Positions 2,345 to 52,662 of a stretch of 64,000 nt of DNA are shown piece after piece (the stretch's first letter is position 1; each line of letters starts with the position of its first letter). The DNA lies in assembly GCA_025057155.1 (NCBI GenBank), contig JANWYD010000006.1, forward strand, positions 186,001-250,000, written 5' to 3'. Made by a program: the position numbers and the translations under genes. This DNA comes from Chloroflexaceae bacterium. GTDB lineage: Bacteria; Chloroflexota; Chloroflexia; Chloroflexales; Chloroflexaceae. The notes below the pieces were generated by a model that saw nothing but the letters and a program-made list of their open reading frames with translations, made no database searches and was not told the origin of the DNA.

Positions 2345-2410
2345 GCCGATGGACAGCGGCGCAACCAGGAGGCCTCCGCTTTCAAACGAGTACGCTATGA
2401 TTCTGGCTTG

Positions 2411-2490
2411 TGGATTTCGGATTTTGGATTTATGGTCTCTCAATGAGACCTGGAGATACTGCGCCTGCATCCTGTTCCACAGGAATTGGC
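2411..2490 (+). repeat. Heptad array plus 47-nt tail (repeat family 1, copy a)
   Basis: A degenerate TTTTGGA array (2411-2433) is followed by a 47-nt tail (2444-2490) that starts TGAGACCTGG and ends CACAGGAATTGGC. The same layout is found at 11658-11744, at 25869-25958 (minus strand) and at 52020-52111. Here it lies just in front of the HIT gene, which has its own ribosome-binding site (GAGAGGAG) further downstream. Confidence 0.75.
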
Positions 2491-2509
2491 TGACAGAGAG
2501 GAGAACGGT

Positions 2510-9871: not shown

Positions 9872-11650
9872 ATGACCCGGATCGTTCCCATTCTCCTGGC
9901 GCTCCTCGCGCTTACCGCCGCCGCGGCGCCACAGCCACCGCCGCACCTCGCTCCGGCGCCGCCATCAGGAACGCCGACGCACCCGCCGGTCTTTGGCCTC
10001 AACTCCCACCTGGCCACGCGCTACCCCGACCCGTCCTCGATGGACGTGCCGGCGGCCCTGGTGAGCGAACTGGGCGTCACCTGGGTGCGCGAGGACCTGC
10101 ACTGGCACCGGGTGCAGCCCCGCCCCGACGTGTGGGACTGGACCTTCACCGATGCGGCGCTGCGCGCGCTGCTCAGCCGGGGGATCAACGTGCTAGGGGT
10201 GCTTGGCCCCTCGGTGGGCTGGGCCACGCCTTACCGCAACGACACTCCCAACGACGTCTCCTACTATGCGCCCGACCCGGACGCCTTCGTGAACTACGCG
10301 CGGGGGGTGGTCACCCGCTATCGCCGCTACGTCAAGCACTGGGAGATCTGGAACGAGCCGGACCTGGCAGTCTTCTGGCGGCCCGCACCCGACGCGGCGG
10401 CTTACGCCGACCTGCTCATCCGAACGGCAGCGGCGATCCGCGAGGTAGATCCGGAGGCGACAATCCTCATTGGCGGCGTCAACCCCTTCGATACCACCTT
10501 CTTGCGCGCCGTGGCCGAATACGGAGCCTGGAACAGCTTCGACATCCTGGCCATTCATCCTTATGTCAACCCATATGGTCCGGAGGACGGCAACCTGGCA
10601 GCGGCGGTGGCGGGTGTCCGGGCGCTGGGGCAGCGCTATGGCCCCAAACCGATCTGGGTCACCGAGGTGGGCTGGGCCAGCGGGCCGAGTGACCGGGACA
10701 GCAGCGGGCGCGCCGATGAACAGAGTCAGGCCAACCATCTGCCACGGGCCATGCTGATGCTGTGGGAGGCGGGGGCGGAGCGGATCTTCTGGTACAGCTT
10801 CAAGGACGATCCGGGCAACCCCTACGGGCTGATCCGCCTGGGGCGCGGGCGCACCGACTACAGCGCGCGCAAACCGGCCTTCGACGCCTTCCGCACCCTG
10901 AACCAGCACCTGGCGGACACGACCTACGTTGAGCGGCGGGACCTGTTCGAGCGGCGGGTGCTGGTGGATTTCGAGAGCGTCCAGGGATGGCGGCGGGTCA
11001 GCCAGCCGAACGGCACGCTCCGGCTGAGCGGCAATGCCTACCGGGGCGAGGGCAGCGCCGAACTCAGCTACAACTTCACCACGCGCCAGAACGACTACGT
11101 GGCCTTCGAGCGCGAACCGCGCCTCTCTCTGGAAGGCGCGCCCTACGCGATCGGCGCGTGGGTCTACGGTGACGGCAGCACGCACGGGCTGAAGGTGTGG
11201 ATCCGCGACGCCGAGGGCGAGGTGCTCCAGTTTGTCCTCGGCCCGGTCGGCGCGCCGGGCTGGCACTTCCTGCACACCCCCATCGGCGGCGAGGTCGAGC
11301 CGGGTAATGTGATCGTCCCCGGCGGCAACCAGCGGGTGGACTTCCCGGCGGCTTTGCAAGCCATCGTCCTCGATGACATCGCGGACGCCTTCGTCGGCGG
11401 AGGCACGATCTGGATTGACGACCTGAGCGCCATCCACGGCCACGAAATCTACGACCTGCGGCTGGAGCGCAACGGCGAGGCGCTGGATGTGCTGTGGTCG
11501 CCGCCGGGCGCGCGGGTCACACTGGCCACCCAGAGCGCAGAGGCGCGCCTGATCGGGCGCGACGGCGCCGAGCGCGCCCTGCCGGCGGAAAACGGCCGCC
11601 TGCGCCTGACGGTGGGGCCGGAGCCGATCTATGTGTGGCATCGAAGATGA
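9872..11650 (+). CDS. Secreted clan GH-A glycoside hydrolase with C-terminal carbohydrate-binding-like domain
   Basis: A 592-residue exported hydrolase. A signal peptide (residues 1-19, LLALLALTAAAA) precedes a TIM-barrel domain (about 38-345). The barrel has the clan GH-A acid/base Glu162 in IWNEPD and nucleophile Glu265 in WVTEVGW, plus WVREDLHWHRVQP near strand 2. It resembles GH39/GH5-like enzymes, but I cannot fix the family. Residues about 360-510 form a beta-sandwich beginning RVLVDFESVQGW and ending IWIDDL, typical of a carbohydrate-binding module. The gene starts 3 bp after the A2M stop and is probably translationally coupled to it. The substrate is unknown; both products should act outside the cytoplasm. 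Confidence 0.85.
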   Translation: MTRIVPILLALLALTAAAAPQPPPHLAPAPPSGTPTHPPVFGLNSHLATRYPDPSSMDVPAALVSELGVTWVREDLHWHRVQPRPDVWDWTFTDAALRALLSRGINVLGVLGPSVGWATPYRNDTPNDVSYYAPDPDAFVNYARGVVTRYRRYVKHWEIWNEPDLAVFWRPAPDAAAYADLLIRTAAAIREVDPEATILIGGVNPFDTTFLRAVAEYGAWNSFDILAIHPYVNPYGPEDGNLAAAVAGVRALGQRYGPKPIWVTEVGWASGPSDRDSSGRADEQSQANHLPRAMLMLWEAGAERIFWYSFKDDPGNPYGLIRLGRGRTDYSARKPAFDAFRTLNQHLADTTYVERRDLFERRVLVDFESVQGWRRVSQPNGTLRLSGNAYRGEGSAELSYNFTTRQNDYVAFEREPRLSLEGAPYAIGAWVYGDGSTHGLKVWIRDAEGEVLQFVLGPVGAPGWHFLHTPIGGEVEPGNVIVPGGNQRVDFPAALQAIVLDDIADAFVGGGTIWIDDLSAIHGHEIYDLRLERNGEALDVLWSPPGARVTLATQSAEARLIGRDGAERALPAENGRLRLTVGPEPIYVWHRR

Positions 11651-11657
11651 TGTGATT

Positions 11658-11744
11658 GTGGATTTTGGATTTTGGATTGCCGTATCTGGCGTCCCAGGCA
11701 GATCTGATGATGATGCGCCAGCGCAATTTCCCACAGGAATTGGC
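11658..11744 (+). repeat. Heptad array plus 47-nt tail (repeat family 1, copy b)
   Basis: A TTTTGGA heptad array (11658-11679) is followed, after 18 bp, by the 47-nt tail (11698-11744). The tail ends CCCACAGGAATTGGC and is immediately followed by the ATG of the lipoprotein gene. Here the tail itself supplies the ribosome-binding site (AGGA, 6 nt from the ATG). Confidence 0.75.
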
Positions 11745-12424
11745 ATGAGACGATACACACTATTGCTGGTCGGATTGGCGCTGCTAACGCTTACCGGGTG
11801 TGGACAGGCATCACCCGCACAAAGGACGCATCCTGAACCACACCCATCACCAACGACGTCCTCCGGGGGAGCATCTGATAGCCGCGCTGCTGAAACACGA
11901 AATCCAGCAACTAGGGAACCGGCGTCTGGTCAAGTCTCCACATCAGGGTCAGACATCCAGATTATTCAGTGGCAAGGATTTCAAATCTCTCTCCCCGGCA
12001 ACGCCGTATTCCATGAAGAACAGCCATCCATTTTCATTAACGATTTTCCGGTCAAAATTCGCGAAAAATAATATACGCAGAAACAAGCACAACAGGGTTG
12101 ATTGAGGAACCTGTTGGCCCAATTTTTAGCATTATTGATTTTGATGGCTCGATCCATGATTGGCTTGAACTTGAGCGAAAGAACACAACAAGCATGTCAG
12201 GAAACAGGGTTGATGAACAAACTGTGCATAAGAAAACCATTGCGGATTTGCCTGCGATAATCTATCAACGTCTCGTGATTGGCACAGGCGACATGACCTA
12301 TGCAATCATCGATGTAGATAAGAGTTCAAAAGCTGACAAGGATCAATTGCTGTTGATCGCTTACGATGCTTCATTCGAACCTAATAATTTGATCATTGCT
12401 AATTTAGCACGTACAACTGATTAG
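11745..12424 (+). pseudogene. Lipoprotein gene interrupted by a -1 frameshift at an A-run
   Basis: The first frame (11745-12071) encodes a lipoprotein signal: MRRYTLLLVGLALLTLTGC, with lipobox LTGC, then a Ser/Thr/Pro-rich linker and the start of a folded domain (IIQWQGFQISLPGN). It stops at a TAA right after a run of five A residues (12064-12068). The second frame, read as AAA ATA ATA TAC, continues without a stop to 12424 with similar composition (LIEEPVGPIFSIIDFDG...). Adding one A to the run would join both into a protein of about 226 residues. The downstream half has no ribosome-binding site and only a TTG start. The gene is much more AT-rich than its neighbours, which suggests recent acquisition. 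A sequencing error, phase variation or -1 slippage at AAA-TAA are all possible. Confidence 0.65.
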
Positions 12425-12598
12425 CTCTACCTTGTCACTTGCCGCGGCTTCCGCTGCGAGGAGGTTCGGAGGGATCGCACCCCTCCGCGCTTTCCCCTTC
12501 CAGGTGCAGCGCGGCTTCGCCGCACCAGGAAGGGCGGATCTCCGGGGTCTGCGGCCACCGCAGCCCCCGCCAGGGGCAACGTGACAAAGTAGAGTTAG
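12421..12598. mobile_element. 170-bp MITE-like element with inverted repeats and TTAG duplication
   Basis: The element spans 12425-12594 and is flanked on both sides by TTAG (12421-12424 and 12595-12598), a 4-bp target duplication. The left end reads CTCTACCTTGTCACTTGCC; the right end, on the other strand, reads CTCTACTTTGTCACGTTGC. The two match over 13 of the first 14 bases and again after a one-base shift. The inside holds no gene but several nested hairpins, for example CTGCGG-CCA-CCGCAG at 12549-12564 and paired GCGG/CCGC arms around 12511-12530. The left duplication includes the stop codon of the frameshifted lipoprotein gene. It is non-autonomous, and the transposase that would move it is not in the window. 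Confidence 0.75.
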
Positions 12599-12622
12599 TC
12601 TGTGAATTCAGTTTTTTGCCAA

Positions 12623-12674
12623 CCCTCCCCCGCCGGGGGAGGGCGTCCGGCGCCTCCCCCCAACGGGGGGAGGC
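12623..12674. repeat. Tandem G/C hairpins (REP-like palindromes)
   Basis: Two adjacent perfect palindromes: CCCTCCCCC (12623-12631) pairs with GGGGGAGGG (12635-12643), and GCCTCCCCCC (12652-12661) pairs with GGGGGGAGGC (12665-12674), each with a three-base loop. They lie in the gap between the MITE-like element and the methyltransferase gene. No promoter or gene is obvious in the remaining 12675-12830. Confidence 0.7.
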
Positions 12675-12843
12675 TGGGAGGGGGGCGGAAATGCCAGCAA
12701 ACTTACGTTACAGACTACTGGATTGATCAAGGGATAATAGCATTTGGCTGGAGAAGATTCGCAGAAGACGGCATCCCCCTGCACCTCGCCTGAACGGTAG
12801 TGCAACAGACCACACAGCGAAACAATGTCTAAGGAGATCGCCA

Positions 12844-24727: not shown

Positions 24728-25855
24728 CTACCAGCGCACCTCCAGGGTCTCATCGGGCCGAAGCGCCACCACAACCCCGCCCTTGCGACTGACACGGCTG
24801 AGCCGCCGGGCCAGCCATCCGGCTTCTTCGGCAGTCGCACGCCACAGGCGAAAGCGCCGGCGCCGGAAAGGCAGCAGACGCGTTTCCACGAGACGCCCAT
24901 CAGCATCCAGGGTGGCGAGGATGATGATGCCCAGATCGGGCCGGTACTCCTCGTAGCCGCCGATGCCCTCATAGTCGTTGATCAGGTCGCCGCAGCCGTA
25001 GAGGATCAGACGCTCCCGATAGACCTCGATACCCAGGGGATGGTGCGAAGAGTGCCCGTACACCAGATCAACCCCGGCAACGGTGATCAACTGCCGGGCG
25101 AAATCCCGGTGCTCGGCGGGGACGGCATAGCCCCAGTTACCGCCCCAGTGCAGCGAGACCGCCACCCGGTCGCCTGGCTGGCGCGCGGCGCGAATGTGCT
25201 CGGCGACGCGCGCCAGGCTGCGAGGGGAGAGATCCTCGAGCAGGTTGACGCCCGCCTGCTCCGCGGTGGCGGCCCAACTGAAGGGGATGCCGCTAGAGGG
25301 CAGACCCCAGGCCCACAGCAGCACGCGGCCCCGTCCCGGCCAGGCGAACGCCACGGGCGCGGCGGCCTCAACGCAGTTCAGACCGGCCCCGACGGTGCGC
25401 ATGCCCGCCTCCTGCACGCTGCGCAGCGTCTCGCGCAGCCCCTCGCGGCCCCAGTCGAGCACGTGGTTGTTCGCCAGTACGCAGCAATCCACTCTCGCCA
25501 CCGTCAGGCAGGAGAGATTGGCCGGATGCATGCGGTAGGTGATGCCCTTGTCGGGCCAGGGCGCATCACTGGTCGTGACGGCCGTTTCGAGGTTGATCAG
25601 TAGCGCATCGGGAGCCTCACGCTCAAGCTGCGGCAGCGCATCGCCCCAGATGTACGCCGGATCAACCGGCCGGGGAATAGGACCATTCACCCGCTCGGCT
25701 AAGGCGACGTATACGGTCGCGCTGCGCACGAAAGACTCGTAGATGGTCGGGTCGCCCGGATGCGGAAGCGCCTGATCAATCCCGCGCCCGGTCATCACAT
25801 CACCGCACAGGGCAAGGACGACGCGCGAGGTTAATGCCGGCGCATCCCGGCGCAT
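24728..25855 (-). CDS. CapA-family protein (poly-gamma-glutamate capsule/metallophosphatase fold)
   Basis: A 375-residue protein of the CapA/PGA_cap family, which has a calcineurin-like metallophosphatase fold. Motifs: LCGDVMTGRG (about 17-26), LLINLETAVT (about 85-94), the ANNHVLDWG signature (about 128-136), and GHSSHHPLGIEVY (about 265-277). There is no signal peptide, unlike secreted CapA, so a cytosolic role is possible. Longer in-frame ATGs at 25903, 25900 and 25885 fall inside the conserved tail of repeat family 1 (25869-25915). The ATG at 25855 follows GAAGAGGGT and is preferred. It converges with the DUF190-CBS gene. Confidence 0.8.
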   Translation of the reverse strand: MRRDAPALTSRVVLALCGDVMTGRGIDQALPHPGDPTIYESFVRSATVYVALAERVNGPIPRPVDPAYIWGDALPQLEREAPDALLINLETAVTTSDAPWPDKGITYRMHPANLSCLTVARVDCCVLANNHVLDWGREGLRETLRSVQEAGMRTVGAGLNCVEAAAPVAFAWPGRGRVLLWAWGLPSSGIPFSWAATAEQAGVNLLEDLSPRSLARVAEHIRAARQPGDRVAVSLHWGGNWGYAVPAEHRDFARQLITVAGVDLVYGHSSHHPLGIEVYRERLILYGCGDLINDYEGIGGYEEYRPDLGIIILATLDADGRLVETRLLPFRRRRFRLWRATAEEAGWLARRLSRVSRKGGVVVALRPDETLEVRW

Positions 25856-25868
25856 CTGACCCTCTTCA

Positions 25869-25958
25869 TCCAACTCCTGTTGCATAGACTGCGCGCGCAT
25901 CATCCCCAGGTCTCACCGGAACGCCCCGCAATCCAAAATCCAAAATCCAAAATCCGAA
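25869..25958 (-). repeat. Heptad array plus 47-nt tail (repeat family 1, copy c)
   Basis: The heptad array (complement of 25931-25958) and the 47-nt tail (complement of 25869-25915) read toward the CapA gene. The tail begins TGAGACCTGGGGATGATGCG and ends CAACAGGAGTTGGA. It aligns with copies a and b without gaps. Confidence 0.75.
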
Positions 25959-25981
25959 ACGGGTAGGATTGCCCACATCCA

Positions 25982-40647: not shown

Positions 40648-40675
40648 AAATCCGCAATCCAAAATCCGCAATCAA
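40648..40675 (-). repeat. Short heptad array (repeat family 1, no tail)
   Basis: Degenerate ATCCAAA/ATCCGCA units lie between two small genes. No 47-nt tail is recognisable on either side. TACAAT at 40640-40645 could be a -10 box for the following gene. Confidence 0.6.
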
Positions 40676-50662: not shown

Positions 50663-50828
50663 AGGCCGGTTTCTTTCAACCTGGCCGCGCCCCCCGTATC
50701 ACGCCTGGCGGCCCGGGGCTGCCGTTTGCGCGCATGCGCCGTCATCAGGCGGGCCATCTTCGCCTCGAACGGCTTACCAGACGCGCAGGCGTAGCGCCAG
50801 TGCCGCCGAACAGGCCGCACGACCATCA

Positions 50829-50876
50829 TCCCCAGGTTTCAGTAATCCAAAATCCAAAATCCAAAATCCAAAATCG
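50829..50876 (-). repeat. Heptad array with partial tail (repeat family 1, copy e)
   Basis: Four to five TTTTGGA heptads (complement of 50844-50876) are followed on the minus strand by TGAAACCTGGGGATGATG, which matches the first 18 bases of the tail. The later part of the tail is not conserved. The element reads toward the HEPN gene. Confidence 0.65.
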
Positions 50877-50928
50877 AACCTCGTATCTTCCCGCGATACA
50901 GAACGGTACATGCAGAGAAGGAGTTTGC

Positions 50929-52017
50929 ATGTATCCTGATTATACCCGCTACTATCTCGGCTTCAACCTGGCGCCGGGGCTGGGGCCAGCCCGTCTGGCG
51001 CGGCTGATCGCCCACTGCGGCTCGCCGGAGCGCGCCTGGCACGCCGATGCCTTCGACCTGGCCGCCGCCGGCATTGACGCGCGCACCAGCGCGGCATTTC
51101 TCGCCACTCGCGAACGGGTTGACCTCGACCGCGAACTGGAGCGCGCCGCGCGGCTCGGCGTCACCTTGCTGTGTATCGAGGACGCGGCCTACCCCCGGCT
51201 GCTGCGCGAGATCCCCGGCGCCCCGCCCCTGCTGTACATTCGCGGCACGCTGACCCCTGCCGACGAGTGGGCCATCGCCGTGGTTGGCACCCGCTCGCCA
51301 ACCCCCTACGGCCGTGAAGCCGCCCGGCATCTGGCCGGCGACCTGGCTCGCGCCGGAGTGACCATCGTCAGCGGGCTGGCCCTGGGGGTTGACGCCATCG
51401 CCCATGCCGCCGCGCTCGACGCCGGGGGGCGCACCGTGGCGGTGCTGGCCTGCGGCGTGGATCGCCCCTACCCCGAGCGCCACCGCGACCTGGCCGAACG
51501 CATCATCGCTCAGGGCGCCCTGGTGAGCGACTACCCGCTGGGGACCGCCCCCGCCGCGGCCAACTTCCCTCCCCGCAACCGCATCATCAGCGGCCTGAGC
51601 CGCGGCACGCTGGTGGTCGAGGCCGGCGAGCGCAGCGGCGCGCTGATCACCGTCGAGTTCGCGCTGGAACAGGGCCGCGACGTGCTGGCCGTGCCGGGGT
51701 CCATCTTCTCGCGCCAGAGCGCGGGCTGTCTGCAACTCATCCGCGACGGCGCCGCCCTCGTCGCCTCCGCCGACGACGCTCTCGCCGCGCTTAATCTGAC
51801 CGCCGCCAGCGCCCAGTCCGAGGCGCGCATCGAACTGCCTGCCGACCCGGTGGAGGCGGCGCTGCTGGCTGCGCTGAGCCACGAACCGCGTCACATTGAT
51901 GAACTCGGACGAGCGGTTGAACTGCCGGCCCCCACTGTCGCCGCGGCGCTGGCTCTGCTGGAACTCAAGGGCCTGGCGCGCCAGGCCGCGCCGATGCAGT
52001 ACGTGCGGGCGCGCTGA
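50929..52017 (+). CDS. dprA: DNA processing protein DprA/Smf
   Basis: A 362-residue DprA, the loader of RecA onto incoming single-stranded DNA during transformation. An N-terminal helical domain (YLGFNLAPGLGPARLARLI) is followed by the Rossmann-like core. The core has VVGTRSPTPYG (about 118-128), VSGLALGVDAIAHAAAL (about 146-162), and FPPRNRIISGLS with VVEAGERSGALITVEFA. A C-terminal winged-helix DML1-like domain occupies about 305-360. The ATG at 50929 follows AGAAGGAG. Presence suggests natural competence genes elsewhere. It is convergent with the Nudix gene across an inverted heptad pair. Confidence 0.95.
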   Translation: MYPDYTRYYLGFNLAPGLGPARLARLIAHCGSPERAWHADAFDLAAAGIDARTSAAFLATRERVDLDRELERAARLGVTLLCIEDAAYPRLLREIPGAPPLLYIRGTLTPADEWAIAVVGTRSPTPYGREAARHLAGDLARAGVTIVSGLALGVDAIAHAAALDAGGRTVAVLACGVDRPYPERHRDLAERIIAQGALVSDYPLGTAPAAANFPPRNRIISGLSRGTLVVEAGERSGALITVEFALEQGRDVLAVPGSIFSRQSAGCLQLIRDGAALVASADDALAALNLTAASAQSEARIELPADPVEAALLAALSHEPRHIDELGRAVELPAPTVAAALALLELKGLARQAAPMQYVRAR

Positions 52018-52019
52018 TA

Positions 52020-52187
52020 CGATTTTGGACTTTAGATTTTGGTTTTTGGATTTGTGGGGTCACGGGGAGACATGGCGATGCTATGCAGCCCTGTATTCAA
52101 CAGGAAAGGGCATAGGGCGATTGCGGCAGGTGCCGGGGCTCGCGCCAGAGACCAATCCAAAATCTAAAATCCAAAATCCAAAATCGC
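52020..52187. repeat. Inverted pair of heptad arrays between convergent genes (repeat family 1, copies f and g)
   Basis: A plus-oriented heptad array (52020-52054) is followed by the conserved tail in 46 nt (52066-52111, ending CAACAGGAAAGGGC). A minus-oriented array lies at 52153-52187. The arrays could pair over about 30 bases into a long AT-rich hairpin just after the dprA stop and at the end of the Nudix gene, and so may act as a bidirectional terminator. Confidence 0.75.
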
Positions 52188-52188
52188 A

Positions 52189-52662
52189 TCAGCGGTCAAA
52201 GTACGCCTCGGCGCGCCCGGTGAAGGCATCGCGCAGCATGCGTCGCGTGCGCGGCAGGAGGGGGGGCAGATGATCGGGCAAGAAGAAGCCTACATTGACA
52301 TTCTCATGGCCGGCGGGATGCAACTCGCCGCCTACAATGCGCGCGGCGAAGAAGATGGCCAGGATCTGCGCCTGGTCGCCGTTGGGGTAGGTCCAGTGGA
52401 AATCGGGGCCGCCATAGACGCCGATCAGCCGTTCGGCCTCCAGCACCAGACCGGTCTCCTCCTGCACCTCGCGGGTCATGCCACGCGCCGGCACTTCGTC
52501 GAGGCTGATAGTGCCGCCGGGCACGTCCCACAACATCACATCGGCCCGCCGGCAGAGCAGAATGCCGCCCTGCTCGTTGCGGGCAAAGGCGCTCGCGCGC
52601 ACCTGCAGAATGCACTGGTGCCCGACATAGCTGCGCAGCCAACGGGTATACTTGATGGTCAT
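52189..52662 (-). CDS. Nudix hydrolase
   Basis: A 157-residue cytosolic Nudix enzyme. The Nudix box Gx5Ex7REUxEExGU is intact at residues 50-72 (GTISLDEV, then MTREVQEETGL), with the metal-binding glutamates in REVQEE. The region YGGPDFHWTYPNGDQAQILAIFF is typical of ADP-ribose or nucleoside-diphosphate-sugar pyrophosphatases; the substrate is not certain. Its start overlaps the stop of the upstream FGE-like gene by four bases (ATGA), so the two are probably made from one transcript. Confidence 0.92.
   Translation of the reverse strand: MTIKYTRWLRSYVGHQCILQVRASAFARNEQGGILLCRRADVMLWDVPGGTISLDEVPARGMTREVQEETGLVLEAERLIGVYGGPDFHWTYPNGDQAQILAIFFAARIVGGELHPAGHENVNVGFFLPDHLPPLLPRTRRMLRDAFTGRAEAYFDR

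Follow-up and report, generated by a model that had tools for sequence, protein, structure and literature searches.

What are the arrays of heptads with a conserved tail that recur in this stretch of a Chloroflexaceae genome, and do they belong to the genes beside which they lie? The window, by which we mean the whole stretch of 64,000 nucleotides that was analysed, covers positions 186001-250000 of contig 6 in a genome of 5.13 Mb and 189 contigs (G000). An earlier note on the sequence had described one layout at four sites, a at 2411-2490 (+), b at 11658-11744 (+), c at 25869-25958 (-) and d at 52020-52111 (+), and had read it as a portable 5' leader. All four sites were found and align with one another; the shared layout is borne out, and the sites are confirmed as copies of one dispersed family. 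They are very probably old copies of a MITE-like transposable element, non-autonomous and about 95-102 bp in length, that was moved in trans. The copies in the window, with their flanks and neighbours, are the following.

2396-2490 (+): copy a, from the sequence, with an eroded left end (placed by a weak resemblance, 5/8 bases), heptads from 2411, a shortened spacer and the tail; profile match 2407-2491 (+), 66 bits
Flanks of copy a: left TNA unrecognisable; TGA follows at 2491-2493
11648-11650 (+): TGA to the left of copy b; it is the stop codon that ends the upstream open frame 9872-11650, from the sequence and the open frame
11651-11745 (+): copy b, an element of 95 bp ending ...CACAGGAATTGGCA, from the sequence; profile match C6:197654-197750
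11746-11748 (+): TGA to the right of copy b, the second copy of the target triplet, by direct reading
11745-12071 (+): open frame starting MRRYTLLLVGLALLTLTGCG, its start rebuilt by copy b, by direct reading
25869-25965 (-): copy c, heptads and tail upstream of a capA-like gene, from the sequence
Flanks of copy c: left triplet not TNA; TGA follows
Downstream of copy c: the capA-like gene (PGA_cap, PF09587)
52015-52017 (+): TGA to the left of copy d; it is the stop codon that ends the dprA-like gene 50734-52017 (PF02481)
52018-52112 (+): copy d, an element of 95 bp, by direct reading; profile match 52021-52115
52136-52188 (-): left-end partial copy (heptads), abutting TGA 52189-52191 of a convergent NUDIX gene (PF00293)
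50794-50875 (-): diverged copy lying upstream of the likely start of the dprA-like gene, with four heptads and part of a tail; 33 bits

Heptads with little or no tail also occur near 40655 and 57817. At 52012-52195 two elements face each other between the convergent dprA-like and NUDIX genes, the heptad end of each lying at its own gene's stop codon. The window holds further dispersed repeats: at 12414-12600 a G+C-rich one, about 180 bp long, which has dozens of copies among the matches listed, mostly in the same-genus genome G003 and in few cases in G000 and G002; and at 12619-12720 a third, of about 100 bp, with at least about 36 copies in G000 at roughly 83-95% identity and more in G002 and G001, which looks younger than the heptad-tail element.

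A dispersed family of heptad-plus-tail units

Near-heptad 12-mers number 21 in the window where 0.04 are expected, whereas the tail's final 13 bases alone, with up to three mismatches, are not significant there (15 seen, 16.5 expected); significance attaches only to the linked layout of heptads and tail, not to the terminal 13 bases by themselves. Throughout G000 the 17-mer GATTTTGGATTTTGGAT has 128 + 109 = 237 matches, a count that tallies overlapping matches inside one array repeatedly, and its reversed-pattern control has 0. A heptad-plus-tail composite matches at least 43 times (best 40 of 339 candidates scored). A sequence-only profile of 99 positions, a covariance model built from 29 copies of 30 (L032, whose right half is lost, was left out), matches at least 156 times at E <= 0.01 (best 150 of 2777 candidates scored), a figure that takes in partial copies and tandem units and that the true total may exceed. 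The profile search that the earlier note had proposed as a check thus finds copies beyond chance in G000, and the outcome that would have counted against the family, no more copies than chance, is excluded. This is a mobile DNA element of about 95 bases with about 150 or more copies in the genome.

Among 61 genomes the composite search matches 13, G000 included, all of them from family f1, which contributes 37 of the 61. In G004, G006 and G035 the match is short, 20-31 bases comprising heptads and the first tail bases; by their letters, two G004 loci (L111 and L119) also have the AATTGGTAT right end. An exact pattern scan of named genomes gives at least 120 stretches with matches, and the 80 with titles divide into 68 from Candidatus Viridilinea mediisalina, 6 from a Chloroflexi MAG (L.E.CH.39_1), 3 from Candidatus Chloroploca and 3 from other bacteria that resemble chance matches. 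What we call the V. mediisalina set consists of 131 distinct pattern copies from 120 stretches, with the MAG, Chloroploca and a few chance matches included. V. mediisalina (G015) belongs to the same family as the window's genome, and its copies are better preserved than those of G000.

The element has two ends, TACCATTT... on the left and ...AATTGGTA on the right, and the general form [TNA]TACCATTT-(GATTnnn)n-GATTGCCG...AATTGGTA[TNA]; the anchored copies suggest a composite form, made by reading, of TGATACCATTTTGGATTTTGGATTTTGGATTGCCGTATATGGCGTCCCGATGAGACCTGGCGATGATGCGCATGCACTGTGTTCAACAGGAATTGGTATGA. Most copies share GATTGCCGTATATGGCGTCCC between the heptads and the tail. In window copies a, c and d the GCCGTATATGGC part is lost or altered, and because of this the spacer had looked variable: heptads and tail stand as first described, and the variability of the spacer is mainly loss and divergence in these three copies. 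Seen from the other side the right end reads TACCAATT..., an imperfect inverted counterpart of TACCATTT... on the left. The V. mediisalina ends TACCATTTACGATTGTAGA / TACCAATTACCCTTGAACA agree by direct reading at 14/19 bases and are terminal inverted repeats, which are weaker in G000, at about 8 bases.

Ends, target duplications and empty sites

In the V. mediisalina set, where 7/8 bases were required of an end and its position was chosen without use of the flanks, the left end is recognisable in 87 of the 131 copies, the right end in 84 and both in 63. The lengths of 55 of these 63 two-ended copies, V. mediisalina-dominated as the set is, fall on a ladder of 81+7n (88, 95, 102, 109, 116, 123 and 137 bp, and one of 200 bp); the heptad array is part of the mobile unit and varies in 7-bp steps. 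TNA stands on both sides in 57/63, with identical N in 50/57, where 2000 shuffles give a mean of 17.8 and a maximum of 29. The G000 duplications are eroded and weakly significant. At 6/8 bases, 40 of 99 near-full-length copies are two-ended, 15 of the 40 have TNA on both sides and N agrees in 10 of the 15 (shuffles: mean 4.4, maximum 10); at 7/8 bases, 13 are two-ended, TNA flanks both ends of 8 of these, and N agrees in 4 of the 8, not above chance (shuffles: mean 2.7, maximum 8). The TNA duplication rests on the V. mediisalina set. At 50 insertion sites the surrounding base composition is symmetric, with G favoured 3-4 bases before TNA and C 3-4 bases after it, a palindromic preference such as would be expected of a symmetrically read target.

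The earlier note had also proposed a comparison of orthologous loci, and this yields two precise empty sites, both found in G026, of the same genus as G015, from V. mediisalina loci. For five V. mediisalina sites the two flanks were joined and searched for there, and two of the five align without gaps across the junction: L122 (TAA, element of 116 bp; 0.791 identity across 497 bases) and L203 (TTA, element of 102 bp, identity 0.777). By direct reading both triplets are stop codons: that at L122 ends the upstream gene (TAA in V. mediisalina, TGA in G026), and that at L203 ends a gene on the opposite strand, hence a case of the mirror orientation. The other three were uninformative: the flanks lie on different contigs, a single flank matched near a contig end, or there is no match; at L141 the left flank alone aligned. 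No clean empty site was found for the window copies at b (in G001, G002 and G004) or at c (in G002 and G004): the region downstream of b differs in all three relatives, and the locus of c has a diverged and interrupted copy in G002 and none in G004. The evidence for mobility thus comes mainly from the related V. mediisalina rather than from the window's own genome.

Slippage-made heptad arrays, like the tandem repeats of cyanobacteria, with a separate tail repeat landing beside them would be two independent things rather than one, and such an account could draw on the heptad arrays without a recognisable tail at L006 and L019, a tail-only match at C18:80571-80624 (model 44-97) and a tandem array of truncated heptad-plus-tail units at C7:269573-269830. 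Against it, the length differences are whole heptads, matching TNA triplets enclose the whole unit including the heptads, and the empty sites lack both parts; we consider it very unlikely. A MITE-like element, in which heptads and tail move together, is the reading that we prefer. The unit is short and gene-less and has terminal inverted repeats, target-site duplications and precise empty sites in relatives, features by which a MITE is recognised. A transposase supplied in trans would insert it at TNA, with the observed duplication of three bases.

At L335 (G000:C7:268500-270900), at about 1081-1340, three near-identical 62-bp units of heptads and truncated tail are followed by a diverged fourth, so the element unit can also grow in place.

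Gene starts and stop codons

Does the element act as a leader for the genes beside it? At copy b it can. The last A of the element and the TG of the second TGA make up the ATG at 11745-11747 by direct reading, and an AGGA at 11735-11738, inside the element and six bases before this ATG, agrees with the earlier claim that the tail of b supplies the ribosome-binding site. The open frame that starts here, 11745-12071 (+), begins with what looks like a lipoprotein signal and belongs to no Pfam family in a query that began one codon upstream. L276 has a start geometry like that of b, by its predicted start. Tails a, b and c had been described as lying immediately before gene starts; this is exact only for b, with its ATG at 11745, while the tail of a stops 19 nt short of the HIT start at 2510, that of c ends about 13 nt before a capA start at 25855 suggested by the G002 and G004 sequences, and that of d faces a convergent gene.

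A 5' leader with a cis-regulatory role, or a structured RNA, that had spread to positions upstream of genes, its tail serving as ribosome-binding site or for the binding of a regulator, would account for b, where the tail gives both AGGA and ATG, and for the similar L276. In G000 as a whole the placement is otherwise. Of 124 deduplicated entries, partial and tandem ones included, 57 have the tail toward a predicted gene start and 61 toward a gene end, while in 6 it faces none, so that a portable 5' leader does not hold as a rule; the gene predictions come from a home-made codon-score finder that is good for stop codons and rough for starts. Nor was a conserved fold found: RNAalifold on 29 copies gives -0.89 kcal/mol with 3 pairs and no compensatory change, three consensus folds score no better than shuffles (z-scores +0.94, -0.95 and -0.47), and Rfam has no gathering-level match in the window. 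We hold a leader or RNA to be highly improbable as the nature of the family. The earlier suggestion of a mobile regulatory or RNA element survives in its first part, through the TNA duplications, the length ladder and the empty sites, and is not supported in the RNA part. On the preferred reading of a transposable element, consequences for downstream genes, among them the AGGA at b, would be incidental.

The bias that had been predicted, toward positions just upstream of start codons, is not seen; the strong bias is toward stop codons and concerns the heptad end. Predicted genes contain none of the 124 G000 entries and 4 of the 131 copies of the V. mediisalina set. Among G000 copies that have a recognised left end and a co-oriented upstream gene, 24/41 abut the stop codon of that gene exactly (3 of the 24 stops are TAG) versus 4/31 in the mirror case with the right end at the stop (Fisher p 8e-5); the V. 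mediisalina set gives 13/39 for the heptad end and 3/34 for the mirror (p 0.02). Copies that abut stops mostly have the heptad end against the stop, as these statistics show. Stop codons make up 21 of 46 left TNAs in G000 versus 109 of 1665 eligible TNA sites (p 2e-13), a background that is not independent since its loci were chosen for holding elements, and versus 32 of 408 in the window (p 6e-12). In the V. mediisalina set they account for 13 of 87 recognised left ends versus 252 of 12059 eligible sites (p 3e-8), with no significant enrichment at right ends (3/84, p 0.26). Because the left triplet is the original target, the stop codon there preceded the insertion.

Such insertions leave the upstream gene intact. 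An element inserted exactly at a stop codon has a whole stop codon ahead of itself, because TNA includes TAA and TGA, and one inserted at an ATGA overlap of stop and start also restores the ATG, because the final base of the element is A; the latter can be read directly at copy b. On the simplest reading the original junction at b was such an ATGA overlap, of which both parts were rebuilt by the insertion; no relative was found with the empty ATGA junction. The duplication has since decayed at copy d, where the right triplet is TAG and no longer matches the left TGA.

One-way placement at stops could mean active targeting by the transposition machinery instead of retention of harmless insertions. 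The excess of stops among the left TNAs of the G000 loci favours targeting, and the occupation of one and the same stop codon in two genera makes it plausible: in V. mediisalina a relative of the gene upstream of b (68% identity over 557 aligned residues, which reach its end) has at its stop codon, at L130, a right-truncated element in the same orientation as b, and by direct reading each of the two elements has the tail subtype of its own genome. The corresponding stop is free of the element in G001, G002 and G004, all of the window's genus, and the stop shared by b and L130 is possibly a hot site or an old insertion. Retention in turn is made plausible by the left triplets, which taken together hardly favour either strand (TAA+TGA 34 and TTA+TCA 26 of 63 in the V. 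mediisalina set); the right ends of that set, as given above, are not enriched at stops, and selection could yield the same picture. We regard active targeting as possible but rather doubtful. Equally tentative is a fuller reading of the MITE-like element as stop-adapted: it would prefer TAA and TGA at gene ends, insert in one orientation with the heptad arm facing the stop, spare the upstream gene by duplicating its stop codon, and by means of its terminal A and its AGGA be able to rebuild an overlapping downstream start, with both frames surviving an insertion within an operon. If it were true, heptad arrays in this bacterial family would be arms of the element and not free tandem repeats.

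These placements suggest a cheap selfish-DNA strategy in a compact genome, with stop codons as landing sites that are duplicated on insertion, and the orientation bias at stops makes targeting versus retention testable. A class of heptad arrays between genes is thereby accounted for as belonging to a mobile element whose length varies in 7-bp steps, and annotation calls for caution, as a start codon and ribosome-binding site beside a copy, as at b, may come from the element.

Candidate partners and comparison with known repeats

A partner transposase with TACCA ends was sought through four Pfam families. PF01609, sought in four genomes other than G000, has 33 matches there, and none of the 30 loci checked is TACCA-ended; PF13359 was found in 0/6 genomes, PF07592 in 1/6 and PF13358 in 2/6, with no TACCA-ended element. 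The partner may be lost, may lie outside these four families or may reside in unsampled strains. Four pairs of TACCA ends lie 0.5-4 kb apart with equal TNA (L235, L168, L198 and L203); the last three involve ends of copies already counted, and the L235 pair, considered as a larger element, is two copies around a gene that we take to be Uma2-like. Likewise L146 3424-5237, considered as an insertion sequence, proves by reading to be two element copies flanking an ordinary gene. A 789-bp repeat common to L122 and L165 has no TACC ends in its displayed letters, and L300 is a TTA-flanked element with different ends.

Nezha and Correia are among the known MITE names. A close likeness in kind is to BrickBuilt of Porphyromonas gingivalis, presented in the accessible text of PMC4596501 as a MITE with an internal minisatellite: it too is short and gene-less, with a leader and a tail, small inverted ends and an internal tandem array, and it too has dispersed copies and sites with and without it. 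It differs in its 23-nt unit, GAGACC... ends, about 19 copies and flanking duplications of varying length, and in the same text no stop-codon placement is described (PMC4596501); with a 7-nt unit and TACCA ends, the element here is not BrickBuilt. A MITE holding a tandem array is thus already known, so the kind is not new. MITEAba12, as given in the available part of PMC6382973, is similar in its size of about 113 bp, its target duplications and its ability to give a neighbouring gene its first codons, and differs in its 9-bp duplications and known partner ISAba12, with no tandem array described there. The TAACTGA repeats of Beggiatoaceae (PMC4679880, likewise available in part) are also many intergenic arrays of a 7-base unit; they differ in the heptad itself and in lying mostly just upstream of start codons, and that portion of the paper describes neither a linked tail nor mobile-element ends. 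In the accessible text of PMC6180586 the strings 'transpos' and 'mobile' are absent. No such element in Chloroflexi is described in the open-access literature searched, and nowhere in it did a 7-bp array appear together with TNA duplication, a high copy number and oriented placement at stops.

That heptad repeats are known from cyanobacteria, as the earlier note stated, agrees with 19 matching plasmid records, all from cyanobacterial genera. The heptanucleotide tandem repeats of cyanobacteria are known as STRRs. Those on the plasmids are near-identical to the heptads of the Chloroflexales element but do not share its tail and seldom have the TACC end: 0/19 records cover 80% of the query, and 14 pattern places in 5/8 records include 1 exact TACC match, a pattern whose reach does not extend to the TACCAATTTTGG carried by L363 and L364. 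Identity of the two elements is mostly not borne out, given the different tail. In L363 and L364, both Nostoc plasmids, a TACCAATTTTGG heptad array at about 400 directly follows the stop of an annotated gene (TAG and TAA, respectively), a placement beside stops that resembles that of the Chloroflexales element, with a different tail.
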